DNA of 64,000 nt from Oscillospiraceae bacterium (lineage in GTDB: Bacteria > Bacillota > Clostridia > Oscillospirales > Oscillospiraceae): contig CAJTGJ010000006.1 in assembly GCA_910575695.1 (NCBI GenBank), positions 1 to 64,000 of the forward strand, in the 5' to 3' direction. Each line of letters starts with the position of its first letter. Positions within the stretch are counted from its first letter, which is position 1. The notes beneath the pieces are model-generated. The model saw only the letters and a program-made list of their open reading frames with translations. It made no database searches and was not told the DNA's origin. A program made the translations under genes and the position numbers. Shown here one piece after another: positions 7,180 through 11,660 of the stretch.

Positions 7180-7701
7180 ATGAGCAAGCCATCCTCCTGC
7201 GGTCGTTTCAAGCTTCCCCTGCTCCCGGTCCTGCGGGGCAGGGCGCAGGCAGCGGCCAGCATCGCGGGCAGCGAACATTATCCAGACATATCGGGCGTTG
7301 TGCGCTTTTATCAGACCGGGGAGGGCGTGATCGTCTGGGCTGAGGTCAGCGGGCTCCCCCGGTCCGGCCAGCCCTGCGGCGGACAGGTTTTTGGGTTCCA
7401 TATCCACAAGGGAAGTGGCTGCGGCGGCAATATGGACGACCCGTTTGCGGACGCCATGTCCCATTACGACCCCGGCGGCTGTGAGCATCCGTACCACGCC
7501 GGGGATCTGCCGCCGCTGTTTGGAAACGACGGATTCGCGCTGTCCCTGTTTCTGACCAGCCGTTTTACTGTGGACGAGGTGCTTGGCAGGACGGTCATTA
7601 TCCACGACCATCCGGATGATTTCACTACCCAGCCGTCCGGCAATTCCGGCACGAAAATTGCCTGCGGAGTGATCCGGAGGGTATCGGGGCCTTGTGGGTA
7701 A
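7180..7701 (+). CDS. Cu/Zn superoxide dismutase family protein
   Basis: A 173-residue protein whose C-terminal 125 residues match the SodC fold. Ligand positions are recognisable: FHIHKGSGC (two Cu His and the disulfide Cys), HYDPGGCEHPYHAGDL (bridging His, two Zn His and the Zn Asp) and VIIHDHPDDF (last Cu His). GTKIACGVI carries the second disulfide Cys, but the active-site Arg that normally precedes it (SRLACGVI in animal enzymes) is Lys here. No signal peptide is evident, unusual for this mostly exported family. AAAGGAG lies seven bases before the ATG at 7180. The Lys may weaken superoxide attraction. Similar proteins occur on Bacillota spores and in the cytoplasm, so its site is uncertain. 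Confidence 0.85.
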   Translation: MSKPSSCGRFKLPLLPVLRGRAQAAASIAGSEHYPDISGVVRFYQTGEGVIVWAEVSGLPRSGQPCGGQVFGFHIHKGSGCGGNMDDPFADAMSHYDPGGCEHPYHAGDLPPLFGNDGFALSLFLTSRFTVDEVLGRTVIIHDHPDDFTTQPSGNSGTKIACGVIRRVSGPCG

Positions 7702-7822: not shown

Positions 7823-8728
7823 CTATAGTTCAAAAATGCTCAGGGATGCCTGTTCCACGAAAAGGCTGCCCCCGTAGTTCAAAAGCAGGGACAGATTGGC
7901 GCAGGGGGCAGGGTGGGCCTGGGGAAAGAGCGTGGCGGAGTAATGAAGCGTCATAGGCTCACAGTCCAGGCATTTCACAGAGAAGTATAGGGGCAGGACA
8001 TCGGAAAAGGCATCACAGGGGGTGAGCCTGACAAAAACAGCCCCCGCATCGTCCCCCTGATAGGGGCCTCGGACGTTTATCGTATAATCCAGCAGATAGG
8101 CCTTTCCTGGCTCCAGATCCACCAGGGACGGATGCTCCTCGCTCCAGCGGATGCCGCAGCTCTTCTGATCCTGGCACTTCCAGGACAGGAGGAAGCCGTT
8201 GTCCCAGGAGAAGCCATTGCACCGGCTGACCAGCTGGATGGCGCTTTTTTGACAGCAGGGCCCGCCGCAGGGCGGCTCACAGGGATGGCCTGGCTTGCAG
8301 GGGCGGTCCGGTTCGCAGGGACGGTTTGGCTTGCAGGGGTGGTCCGGTTCGCAGGGACGGTCCGGCTTGCAGGGACGGTCTGGCTTGCAGGGATGATCCG
8401 GCTCACACAGACAGGGCGGTTTCGGCGGGGGTTCATGGCCTCCAGCCGCCAGCGCTTTTTCCAGTTTGCCCTTCAACAGCATCTGGCTCTGCATCACGGT
8501 GTCCAGCAGCTCTGTGACGCTCTTGTTCACCTCCAGTATTTCCTGAGGCCCGGCGCACAGCTTCGGCCCACCCGGCAGAGTGCCCAGGATATATTGCAGC
8601 TTTTCGCCCTCCGCGTTGACGATGTGGCTGAGGGCCAGCTCCTCCATGGCGATGGAGGCGATAATCATGGTGATCGCCTCGTCTTTGGTCATGTCCGCCC
8701 CGCAGGGCGGGAAAGAAGGCATAGACAT
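7823..8728 (-). CDS. Cys-Pro repeat stalk protein, probable spore-surface protein
   Basis: A 301-residue three-part protein. Residues about 17-53 ([31 protein letters not shown]) are the same anchor found in the next two genes and in BclA-like collagen proteins of spore formers (recollection). Residues 108-149 are seven tandem hexapeptides of the form C-[EK]-P-[DNG]-[HR]-P, then CEPPCGGPCC. The last 140 residues (LEPGKAYLLDYTINVRG, GAVFVRLTPCDAF) resemble a beta-sandwich head. Cysteines are abundant throughout, so disulfide cross-linking is plausible. GGGAGA precedes the ATG. It is transcribed away from its two paralogues. No signal peptide, as expected for spore proteins made in the mother cell. 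Function inferred only. Confidence 0.7.
   Translation of the reverse strand: MSMPSFPPCGADMTKDEAITMIIASIAMEELALSHIVNAEGEKLQYILGTLPGGPKLCAGPQEILEVNKSVTELLDTVMQSQMLLKGKLEKALAAGGHEPPPKPPCLCEPDHPCKPDRPCKPDRPCEPDHPCKPNRPCEPDRPCKPGHPCEPPCGGPCCQKSAIQLVSRCNGFSWDNGFLLSWKCQDQKSCGIRWSEEHPSLVDLEPGKAYLLDYTINVRGPYQGDDAGAVFVRLTPCDAFSDVLPLYFSVKCLDCEPMTLHYSATLFPQAHPAPCANLSLLLNYGGSLFVEQASLSIFEL
8282..8407 (-). repeat. Tandem 18-base repeat encoding a Cys-Pro hexapeptide
   Basis: Seven units coding C-[EK]-P-[DNG]-[HR]-P. Alternating Glu and Lys after Cys and alternating His and Arg make a charged, Pro-rich, potentially cross-linked rod. Near-identical units mean repeat number could vary between strains. Confidence 0.9.
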
Positions 8729-8856
8729 ATTGATTTGTCTCCCATCGCCGCCTTTGCTCCGGCCCGGGGGAAAGGTGGCGGATGTACGGCGCGTCTGCCG
8801 CGCCGCCGGTTCATTTTATGCGCCCGGCGCCTCCTTTGGGAATGTCGAAAAAAGGA

Positions 8857-8884
8857 ACCTTCTGTAGGGGAGGCACATAGGATG
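8857..8884 (+). promoter_or_regulatory. Possible late mother-cell (SigK/SigE-like) promoter
   Basis: AC (8857-8858), 17 bases, CATAGGATG (8876-8884), against the SigK consensus AC-N16/17-CATANNNTA. A similar CATAAAATG lies on the opposite strand at about 8811-8819, facing the minus-strand paralogue, but without a matching -35. No TTGACA/TATAAT promoter is seen here. Weak evidence. Confidence 0.3.
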
Positions 8885-8958
8885 TGTCAGGCGCGGGCAG
8901 GGGCAGGAACATCCGGCTGAGCAAACGGCCCGAAGCCGTCTGGAAAGGAGTAATGTCC

Positions 8959-9333
8959 ATGTCTATGCCCAGCTTTCCCGTGGTGGATCCACCCATCGAC
9001 CGGGAAGGCGCAGTCAATCAGATCCTGTCCTCCATTGCCATGGAGGAGCTTGGTCTCAGCCATATTTTGAACGCCGAGGGCGAGAAGCTCCAATATATCC
9101 TGGGCACCCTGCCCGGGCTCAGCGGGCCTCCGGCCACTGTCAGCGATGTGCTGGCGGCCAACACGGCTTCCACCATCGCGCCGCTGGTGTCCTTGAGCCA
9201 TTTCTCCAATGAGATCATGCTGAACCTTGCTGCCGGCACCACCATATCTCTGCAAATGTTTGGGATCGTGTCTGCCGCGACGCTGCTTCCGGGCTCCGCG
9301 GGCGCTTCCCTGATGATTACCCGTCTGAGCTGA
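8959..9333 (+). CDS. Stalkless anchor-head paralogue of the collagen-like protein
   Basis: A 124-residue protein joining the shared anchor ([41 protein letters not shown]) directly to a sequence matching only the last 58 residues of the next gene's head ([45 protein letters not shown]). There is no repeat stalk and the first half of the head is missing. I start at the ATG at 8959 (MSMPSFP, as in the minus-strand paralogue), eight bases after AGGAG; an ATG at 8953 is too close to that site. It ends 14 bases before the collagen-like gene, probably in one operon. It could be a shortened cap or basal protein, or a deletion product. Confidence 0.7.
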
Positions 9334-9347
9334 GGAGGTGCAACGGT

Positions 9348-10454
9348 ATGTCGCAGCCCAATTTTCCCATTATTGATCCCCCTTTGACCCGAGACGGGAG
9401 CGTCAATGAAATCATTTCCTCCATTGCCGCCGAGGAGCTGAGCCTGAGCCACATCCTGAATGCCGAGGGCGAAAAGCTGCAATACGTTCTGGGCACCCTG
9501 CCGGGGCTCAGCGGCGGCGCGGATATTGAAGATGTCCTGGACGTCAACAGGAGCGTTCAGCGGATGCTGGATGAGGTCGCCCAGCAGCAGCTCCTGATGG
9601 GCGCGAAGCTGAGCGCGGCGCTGGATGCTCCGGTATTCACCGGCCCCACTGGCCCTACCGGTCCCACTGGTCCGACCGGCCCCGCCACGGGTGCCACGGG
9701 CCCCGCCGGCCCGGACGGTCCCGAGGGTCCTGCCGGTGCGGTGGGTGCTGCCGGGCCTGACGGCGCTGTCGGCCCTATCGGGCCTACCGGCGCGGATGGC
9801 CTGCCCGGCCCTGCCGGAGCTGTGGGCGCGGTGGGCGCGGAAGGCCCAGTTGGCCCTGTCGGTCCCACTGGAGCCGCTGGCCCTGCTGGCGCAGCAGGCG
9901 CGGTGGGCATCACCGGCCCCACCGGCCCGGACGGCGCGGCTGGCGCCATCGGTCCTGCTGGCGCGGTTGGCGCTGCCGGTCCCACCGGGGCCGCCGGAGC
10001 CACGGGGGTTATCGGTCCCACCGGCCCCACCGGGCCCAATCCCACGGCAACGGCGGGGTTTGCCGCCAACACGGCGGGGACCAGCCTCACCGTGGCCCTG
10101 GGCGGCACGCCCATTCCGCTGCCCAATGCTCAGCTGCTCTCGGCGGACATCACCCCCAACGCGGGGAATACTGTGTTCACCGTGGCCACCGCAGGGCGTT
10201 ACCGCATCTCCTACCACGTGAATACCACGGCGGCCCTGCTGATGGGCAGCCGCCTGGTCATCAACGGGACGAACAACACCGCGTCCACCATTGTGCCGGT
10301 GCTGTCTGTCTCCAACTATGAGAACGAGATCGAGGTCAGCCTGCCTGCCAACTCCACCATCTCCCTCCAGCTCTATCCCATTGTGCTGGCCGGGCTGGCG
10401 GTGCTGATCAGCGGCGGCGCGGGCGCGTCTCTGATGATTGTCCGGCTGAGCTGA
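9348..10454 (+). CDS. BclA-like collagen-like protein, probable spore surface filament
   Basis: A 368-residue protein. The anchor (about residues 19-53) is followed by a linker, then a collagen region from Gly 99 to residue 231: about 44 GXY triplets, rich in GPT, GPA and GAV, broken once by an extra Thr (GPATGAT). The C-terminal 135 residues ([48 protein letters not shown]) form a TNF/C1q-like trimerising beta-sandwich as in BclA. Such proteins build hair-like filaments on spores. GPT Thr residues are the usual O-glycosylation sites, and a glycosyltransferase gene follows. AGGAGG lies nine bases before the ATG. Confidence 0.85.
9642..10040 (+). repeat. Collagen GXY repeat region
   Basis: Codons for about 44 Gly-X-Y triplets, with one single-residue interruption near its start. 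Strong codon periodicity of nine bases; GC-rich and prone to length change. Confidence 0.95.
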
Positions 10455-10478
10455 CCGGAAAGCCCTCAGCTCCACGCA

Positions 10479-10510
10479 GGGGGCGGCGTCTGTTCGCGGA
10501 CGCCGCCCCC
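10479..10510 (+). terminator. UUCG-capped hairpin between stalk and glycosyltransferase genes
   Basis: A 14-base-pair GC stem (10479-10492 with 10497-10510) closed by a TTCG tetraloop. It is followed by GCTGTTGTC, not a T run. It may end most transcripts, protect the 3' end, or let partial read-through reach the glycosyltransferase gene. Confidence 0.6.
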
Positions 10511-10580
10511 GCTGTTGTCATAAACAAGTTCCCCGCCCAACAGGCAGGGAAGTGAAACCGGTATCAAAGGAGGATGTTCC

Positions 10581-11660
10581 ATGGTTACAGTCAGTCTGTG
10601 CATGATTGTAAAAAACGAGGAGGATGTGCTGGGGCGCTGTCTGGAGAGCATATCGGGCATGGTGGATGAGATTATCGTGGTGGACACCGGCTCCACCGAC
10701 CGGACCCGTGAAATTGCGGCGCAGTTCACCAGCCGGATCTATGACTTCGCCTGGATCGACGACTTCGCGGCGGCGCGGAATTACGCTTTTTCCCTGGCGG
10801 AGATGGACTACTGTATGTGGCTGGACGCGGACGACGTGCTTTTGGAGGCAGACCAGGATGCCTTCCGGGCACTGAAGGAGGAGCTGGACCCCGCTGTCAG
10901 CGTGGTGATGGCCAAGTACAACACCGGGTTTGACGAGAATGGGAACGTGACCTTTTCCTATTTCCGGGAACGGCTCATCAAAAACCACGCCGGAATGCGG
11001 TGGGAGGGTGCGGTCCACGAGGCTGTCACTCCCGCAGGCCGGGTGGAGTACAGCCAGTTTGCCGTCACCCACCGCAAGCTGCGCCCCTCCGACCCGGACA
11101 GGAATCTGCGGATCTATGAAGCCCAGCTGGAGCGGGGGACAGAGCTGGAGCCCCGCCAGCAGTTTTATTATGGGCGGGAGCTGTACTACCACCAGCGTTA
11201 TGCGCAGGCCGTGAAGGTCTTTGAGCTGTTTTTGGACGAGGGCCAGGGCTGGGTGGAAAACAACATCGACGCCTGCTGCCACTGCGCCTACTGCTATGAG
11301 CAGATGGAGCGGCCGGAGCGGGCGCTTCAAGCCCTGCTGCGCAGTTTTTCCTATGACCGTCCCCGGGCGGAGGTGTGCTGTGAGCTGGGGCGGTGGTTTT
11401 TCCAGCGGGATAGGCTGTCCCAGGCGGTTTATTGGTATTCCCTGGCCCTGACCTGCCCCCGGGACGACAGCCGGGGCGGTTTTGTGTCTCCGGACTGCTA
11501 CGGCTATCTGCCCTGCATCCAGCTGTGCGTGTGCTACAGCCGTTTGGGCGACTGGAAGCGGGCAGAGCAGATGAATGGGCTGGCGGCGTTCTTCAAGCCG
11601 GACGCAGCCCCTGTCGCGTACAACCGGGCCTTTTTCCAGAGCCTGGAGGGAGAAGTGTGA
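10581..11660 (+). CDS. Family 2 glycosyltransferase with TPR-like C-terminus
   Basis: A 359-residue cytoplasmic GT2 enzyme. The N-terminal GT-A domain shows SLCMIVKNEEDVLGRCLES, IIVVDTGSTDRT and the metal-binding WLDADD. DFAAARNYAF is typical of the SunS/SPBc2-like branch that transfers sugar to proteins. From about residue 190 onward repeated aromatic helix pairs (QFYYGRELYYHQRYAQAVKVF, ALQALLRSFSYDRPRAEVCCEL) form TPR-like repeats. AAAGGAGG lies before the ATG. Its place right after the collagen-like gene suggests it glycosylates the GXY stalk (inference). No signal or membrane segment. Confidence 0.85.
   Translation: MVTVSLCMIVKNEEDVLGRCLESISGMVDEIIVVDTGSTDRTREIAAQFTSRIYDFAWIDDFAAARNYAFSLAEMDYCMWLDADDVLLEADQDAFRALKEELDPAVSVVMAKYNTGFDENGNVTFSYFRERLIKNHAGMRWEGAVHEAVTPAGRVEYSQFAVTHRKLRPSDPDRNLRIYEAQLERGTELEPRQQFYYGRELYYHQRYAQAVKVFELFLDEGQGWVENNIDACCHCAYCYEQMERPERALQALLRSFSYDRPRAEVCCELGRWFFQRDRLSQAVYWYSLALTCPRDDSRGGFVSPDCYGYLPCIQLCVCYSRLGDWKRAEQMNGLAAFFKPDAAPVAYNRAFFQSLEGEV

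Follow-up and report, generated by a model that had tools for sequence, protein, structure and literature searches.

A 64,000-nucleotide stretch of the genome of an Oscillospiraceae bacterium (assembly GCA_910575695.1, contig CAJTGJ010000006.1, positions 1 to 64,000 of the forward strand; here called the window) carries a locus that probably encodes late mother-cell proteins of the spore surface built on the module of A-ENA fibers. A place at the spore surface had been proposed in the initial annotation, and it is supported by the title of a solved structure related to the module, which names a spore fiber, by sigma-K-like promoters conserved among relatives, and by the presence of SpoIVA in the same genome. 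Open reading frame (ORF) calls and a domain scan of the window confirmed four ORFs where they had first been placed: gene A (7823 to 8728, minus strand, 301 amino acids [aa]), gene B (8953 to 9333, plus strand, 126 aa), gene C (9348 to 10454, plus strand, 368 aa), and a glycosyltransferase gene of GT2-TPR architecture (10581 to 11660, plus strand, 359 aa). The annotation had described one N-terminal block shared by A, B, and C, taken to be a docking site, followed by a different design in each; its observations were confirmed in part, and its interpretation found partial support. The block is full in A and C, while B has most but not all of it.

This block (the anchor) is not a chance pattern, as 467 of the 492 pattern matches in genome contigs encode a relative of it. 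A search of the window's own genome, which is 95.6% complete and may thus lack some genes, found exactly three anchor genes, namely, A, B, and C. The related loci (given below by L numbers) are the best 80 of the 467 loci from one scan plus loci from genome searches, a set biased to close relatives.

A module related by sequence to the A-ENA fiber subunit

Scans with Pfam and NCBIfam assigned the anchor to no family above chance. The best model, HisG_C, fell on the anchor of B with E-values of 0.08 (Pfam) and 0.14 (NCBIfam), and two surface-protein models fell on A, also at chance level (0.4 to 0.5). The own genome was scanned for the Coat_X family as well and gave no match. A profile of 18 diverse anchors, on the other hand, found one solved relative, PDB 9IHH, with an E-value of 8.2e-29 over query positions 1 to 92, which is the whole module. 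This entry, entitled "Ex vivo spore-silk A-ENA fibers," has 101 aa and 29 chains and was released on 2026-03-04. Single sequences matched it too, with E-values of 2e-18 for A, 1e-10 for the module of C, and 4.2e-10 for B, the last at chain positions 1 to 68 only. The module is predicted to form a helical hairpin (helices 15 to 48 and 60 to 91) with a mean predicted local distance difference test (pLDDT) score of 88, and Foldseek placed 9ihh_A first for this model (TM score of 0.73, 36% identity, E-value of 4.5e-3). As judged by these comparisons, each N terminus is homologous to the A-ENA subunit, completely in A and C and over a cut module in B. The likeness covers the 92-residue module, the hairpin, and an N-terminal MxxPxxP; the difference is that 9IHH is close to module only, whereas A and C add a stalk and a head.

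Promoters, counterevidence, and the docking alternative

The sigma-K consensus was taken from the available text of PMC5749712, and one base on either side of the published spacing was allowed. Upstream of the gene at the place of B, sigma-K-like sites were present in 25 of 25 sequences with the relaxed pattern and in 18 of 25 with the strict one; upstream of gene A the figures were 24 and 13 of 35. Background frequencies were 28 and 5 of 719 ORFs, which were called mechanically and of which many are not genes. Of the 35 sequences upstream of A, 25 contain the motif CATAnnnTA; that of the window does not. In the window, a site upstream of B (8857 to 8883, plus strand) follows the relaxed pattern AC...CATAGGAT. 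Since this pattern occurs 18 times in the window, counting both strands, a single match proves nothing, and the argument is one of conservation, among relatives that are not independent.

Several observations weigh against a late-sporulation system built on a fiber module. Upstream of the window's gene A there is no full sigma-K-like site, only a -10-like CATAAAAT (8813 to 8820, minus strand) with no TA after it and no matching -35 found. SpoIVA was found in 37 of 39 anchor-positive and 299 of 359 other genomes of the phylum, which is not a significant difference (P = 0.063); with 336 of the 398 phylum genomes having SpoIVA, the comparison is underpowered, and co-occurrence with sporulation was dropped as proof. 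The E-value of the Foldseek match is modest, so the homology is argued from the sequence match. No module-only (homopolymer-type) subunit was found in the own genome at its 95.6% completeness, all three anchors being extended, and frames of <150 aa contained only 3 of the 61 anchor matches from 18 related genomes. Fibers of A and C alone are for these reasons not shown, and the lack of such a subunit leads us to class the proteins by their A-ENA-type module and not as an A-ENA fiber system. No paper on A-ENA or 9IHH was found, bioRxiv preprints and most subscription journals lying outside the search, so that what is known here of A-ENA comes from the title and sequence of 9IHH. The one paper that came up for spore silk deals with potato scab.

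The same lack of a module-only subunit would suit a module that docks onto a basal-layer spore protein and does not polymerize, giving a nap instead of fibers. There is a model for it in Bacillus, where collagen proteins are attached to ExsF through their N-terminal leader according to the text available for PMC11952670. We consider this the strongest of the alternatives, yet an unlikely one. The module is no short leader and is homologous to a fiber subunit over its whole length, and module-only proteins are frequent among relatives (40 of 245). In three loci (L098, L099, and L101) the module stands at the C terminus, behind another N-terminal part and a Thr/Ser-rich stretch, and therefore fits poorly with a simple N-terminal leader. 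"Docking site" may thus be too passive a name for a block homologous to a fiber subunit, although direct docking onto the basal layer might still occur. An NCBIfam scan (E-values up to 1) gave no exosporium leader model, but short models can escape the HMMER filters, and the model library may contain none for this leader.

Stalks and heads on the shared module

The initial annotation had suggested searching relatives for the anchor and tabulating what follows it. This was done for 245 complete distinct proteins, kept from 388 anchor ORFs once duplicates, ORFs truncated at the 3' end by a contig edge, and sequences containing X had been dropped. Collagen with a BclA_C head accounted for 91 of them and the module only for 40. 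A-type heads (those like the head of A) were carried by proline-rich stalks in 34 proteins (26 with at least two Cys and 8 with fewer), by short or other stalks in 10, and by collagen in 5. Collagen with another or no known head (15), proline-rich stalks with no known head (6 with Cys and 1 with fewer Cys), Thr/Ser-rich proteins (5), another stalk with BclA_C (1), incomplete anchors (6, B among them), and other arrangements (31) made up the rest. The two head profiles used were built from part of these same proteins, and genes cut by elements are counted in the table, L007 and L061 as module only and L019 and L037 as collagen without a known head. The proposal of a modular surface with stalks exchanged on a shared module is thereby supported, and heads are exchanged too. 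It would mean that one polymer module has been reused with many stalks and heads, tying a fiber fold for which we know a single structure entry to a large spore-surface protein family of gut Clostridia. The A-ENA-type module might then serve as a marker for predicting spore hairs in uncultured gut bacteria.

Gene C is a BclA-type collagen protein, with collagen triplets and a PF18573 head. Its stalk (9642 to 10040, plus strand) has 44 G-X-Y triplets in runs of 5 and 39 with one interrupting residue, 10 of them GPT, and its C terminus (10059 to 10451) matches BclA_C (PF18573, E-value of 1.9e-40), so that the 44 triplets and TNF-like head first reported were both borne out. C and B gave the only two BclA_C matches in the own genome. 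Known BclA-type proteins of Bacillus and Clostridia, including F-BclA/F-Anchor of the F-ENA fibers, likewise combine an N-terminal attachment module, a collagen stalk, and a TNF/C1q head, but here the attachment module is of the A-ENA type, and A has a proline/cysteine stalk instead of collagen under a head of similar fold. Modularity itself has a precedent, since in the Bacillus F-ENA design a leader or fiber module carries collagen and head, as described in the available text of PMC11952670. Our literature search found no paper on collagen-like spore proteins of Oscillibacter; for Ruminococcaceae, two papers came up.

In gene A, the helical-hairpin module (residues 1 to 95; 8444 to 8728, minus strand; predicted helices 15 to 48 and 61 to 95) is followed by a proline-rich stalk (about residues 97 to 160; 8249 to 8440), for which pLDDT block means are 44 to 55 at residues 101 to 160. 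Seven C-x-P-x-x-P hexapeptides were confirmed at residues 108 to 149. The account of A as anchor plus Cys-Pro stalk was right about the stalk but left out a C-terminal head (about residues 161 to 301; 7826 to 8248), to which structure prediction gives a diverged BclA-like jelly roll of the TNF/C1q type that the Pfam and NCBIfam scans did not see. Direct sequence homology of this head to BclA_C heads was not significant, and we accept a shared fold only. A is thus modeled as a proline-rich stalk with Cys under a predicted jelly-roll head.

We surveyed the stalks of 32 of 34 A-type proteins, the window's included (L047 and L076 were left out, and stalk limits assume a 140-residue head). They ranged from 27 to 135 residues with a mean of 40% proline and had 0 to 18 Cys; at least two Cys were present in 29 of the 32, and those of L036, L038, and L040 were Cys-free (TP)n stalks. 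Proline-rich stalks with Cys also occurred on anchors outside the A-type locus (L138, L139, and L155). Proline-richness, as far as these sequences tell, is the constant of the stalk and Cys a common option, so that "disulfide-linked rods" as the defining design is not supported. The family amounts to a natural test of what a stalk needs: it must be extended and rich in proline but can do without cysteine. The long Thr-Pro repeats of L036, L038, and L040 are low-complexity DNA and may differ in length between strains. In L053 (frame at 7286) and on the minus strand of L060, the anchor is followed by a short Cys/Pro tail with no known head. CdeC and CsxA are reported to be Cys-rich spore-surface proteins of Clostridia too, which is a general resemblance only. 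CdeM is another cysteine-rich exosporium protein. Our search found no paper joining exosporium, polyproline, cysteine-rich proteins, and spores.

Gene B, a putative deletion derivative

Gene B had been described as an anchor without a stalk, but it is a truncated module (8953 to 9162, plus strand; helix 1 and the start of helix 2, with helix limits from predictions) joined to the C-terminal half of a BclA_C head (9163 to 9330; PF18573 profile positions 72 to 128, E-value of 4.6e-14). Most A-type relatives have in its place a collagen gene of 256 to 370 residues with a head. Compared with the gene at this place in four relatives, the 5' part of B is 89 to 92% identical and the 3' part 83 to 92%; relative to the gene of L008, about 730 bases have gone from between the two parts, and a brief shared sequence marks the junction. 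What B has lost is the collagen, along with most of helix 2 and half of the head. By this comparison, B is an in-frame deletion derivative of the relatives' collagen gene, resembling a damaged copy, and the reading as a designed stub is not supported, though constraint is not visibly relaxed: the dN/dS ratio of the kept parts against orthologues is 0.01 to 0.13, so either the deletion happened recently or B remains in use. The deletion may also be an assembly error. As a fiber subunit B is probably useless. In L007 and L019, the gene at this place is interrupted by a mobile element.

It is accordingly improbable that the locus holds three stalks, each designed for its purpose, on a single docking site, with B working as a stub and A as a disulfide-linked rod. 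B does keep a start, a sequence like a ribosome-binding site, its frame, and a sigma-K-like site, and its constraint and the frequent Cys of A-type stalks would agree with such a design. However, its architecture is unique among the 245 proteins, most orthologues have collagen and head, the anchor frames at this place in L030, L034, and L042 are all short or broken, as if the gene were often lost, and Cys-free stalks exist. That these are vegetative-cell adhesins unrelated to spores is very hard to credit: 2 of 39 phylum-level and 4 of 23 family-level anchor-positive genomes do fall outside the listed SpoIVA positives (19 of 23 in the family, compared to 150 of 177 other genomes), but three of those four family genomes are only 73 to 83% complete, the title of 9IHH gives a spore origin, the promoters are sigma-K-like, and no LPXTG model reached its cutoff in the NCBIfam scan.

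Glycosyltransferase and proposed assembly

A homologue of the glycosyltransferase was present in 25 of 34 A-type loci, always on the strand opposite to A, and on the collagen-gene side of A in 23 (on the other side in L034 and L041). In seven of the nine loci without it, the sequence covered ends soon on that side or an element intervenes; in L029 and L033 no homologue was found. Flavonifractor plautii ATCC 29863 (L031), a cultured relative, has an A-type gene together with one collagen gene and the glycosyltransferase. The architecture is that of Clostridioides difficile SgtA, described in the available text as an enzyme of about 358 aa with a GT-A domain and then TPRs, encoded beside a spore collagen gene. 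SgtA lies upstream and the window enzyme downstream of the collagen gene, and the two are likened by architecture and length. SgtA is reported to transfer O-linked N-acetylglucosamine (O-GlcNAc) onto Thr of BclA3 collagen peptides in vitro (PMC7157674, available text). By analogy, the window enzyme probably adds sugar to the collagen-like protein C; its architecture, its recurrence at relatives' loci, and its likeness to SgtA support the type first assigned to it, a modifier of spore collagen. S-glycosylation of A by a SunS-like enzyme is not favored, because the SunS model scored 57.8 (cutoff, 350) and the glycosyltransferase also accompanies the Cys-free stalks of L036, L038, and L040.

In the assembly that we propose, the mother cell would make A and C late in sporulation under sigma-K transcription, and their modules would self-associate into A-ENA-like fibers or add to fiber ends on the spore. 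Stalk and head would point outward, by analogy with the BclA-type tip fibrilla of other endospore appendages. The SgtA-like enzyme would place O-GlcNAc on Thr of the C collagen, and occasional Cys cross-links might stiffen A without being essential.

Mobile elements inside collagen genes

A search of 400 family genomes for the end sequence of a family of mobile elements gave 11 matches in 10 of them. Ten of these, in nine genomes, could be placed at the element end, and every one borders DNA coding for G-X-Y; the remaining match, L135 (G144), is weak and internal, stops short of the end, and was excluded. Adding L019, L037, and L061 gives 13 sites in 12 genomes, 13 of 13 in collagen genes (the others being L007/L126, L127 to L134, and L136; L007 and one of the ten denote a single site). 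Only two triplets precede the insertion at L007/L126 and L136. As a control, 2,100 segments of 120 bases were taken at random from the window and six loci, and 49 of them had at least six triplets in a row. A large serine recombinase lies behind the element end in both copies examined (L061 and L019). The collagen gene beside A in Oscillibacter sp. 1-3, a homologue of gene B, is split into an anchor half and a head half by a 46,978-base element (L120 to L122) with conjugation and mobilization genes among ten ORFs scanned; the two halves share a strand and have fitting frames. The window's genome had no match to the element end sequence.

Developmental rejoining of element-split spore genes has been reported for sigK, spsM, and gerE. 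Of two papers that came up for elements in collagen genes, one proved unrelated. A bolder reading, which we hold to be doubtful, is that spores of these gut Oscillospiraceae bear bottle-brush A-ENA-like fibers in which each subunit has its own stalk and jelly-roll head, collagen and proline/cysteine stalks being interchangeable spacers, and that collagen genes are favored insertion sites of serine-recombinase conjugative elements, which lie in frame, so that their excision at sporulation would switch a fiber hair on or off. If the elements do excise during sporulation, spore-surface hairs would join the short list of developmentally rearranged spore genes.

Neighboring genes

GreA was dropped as a part of the system, being present in 0 of 80 related loci (it could lie beyond the stretch covered), as were SodC and an FMN reductase, each in 1 of 80. 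The SodC gene, encoding a Cu/Zn superoxide dismutase (PF00080), adjoins the locus at 7180 to 7701 on the plus strand.
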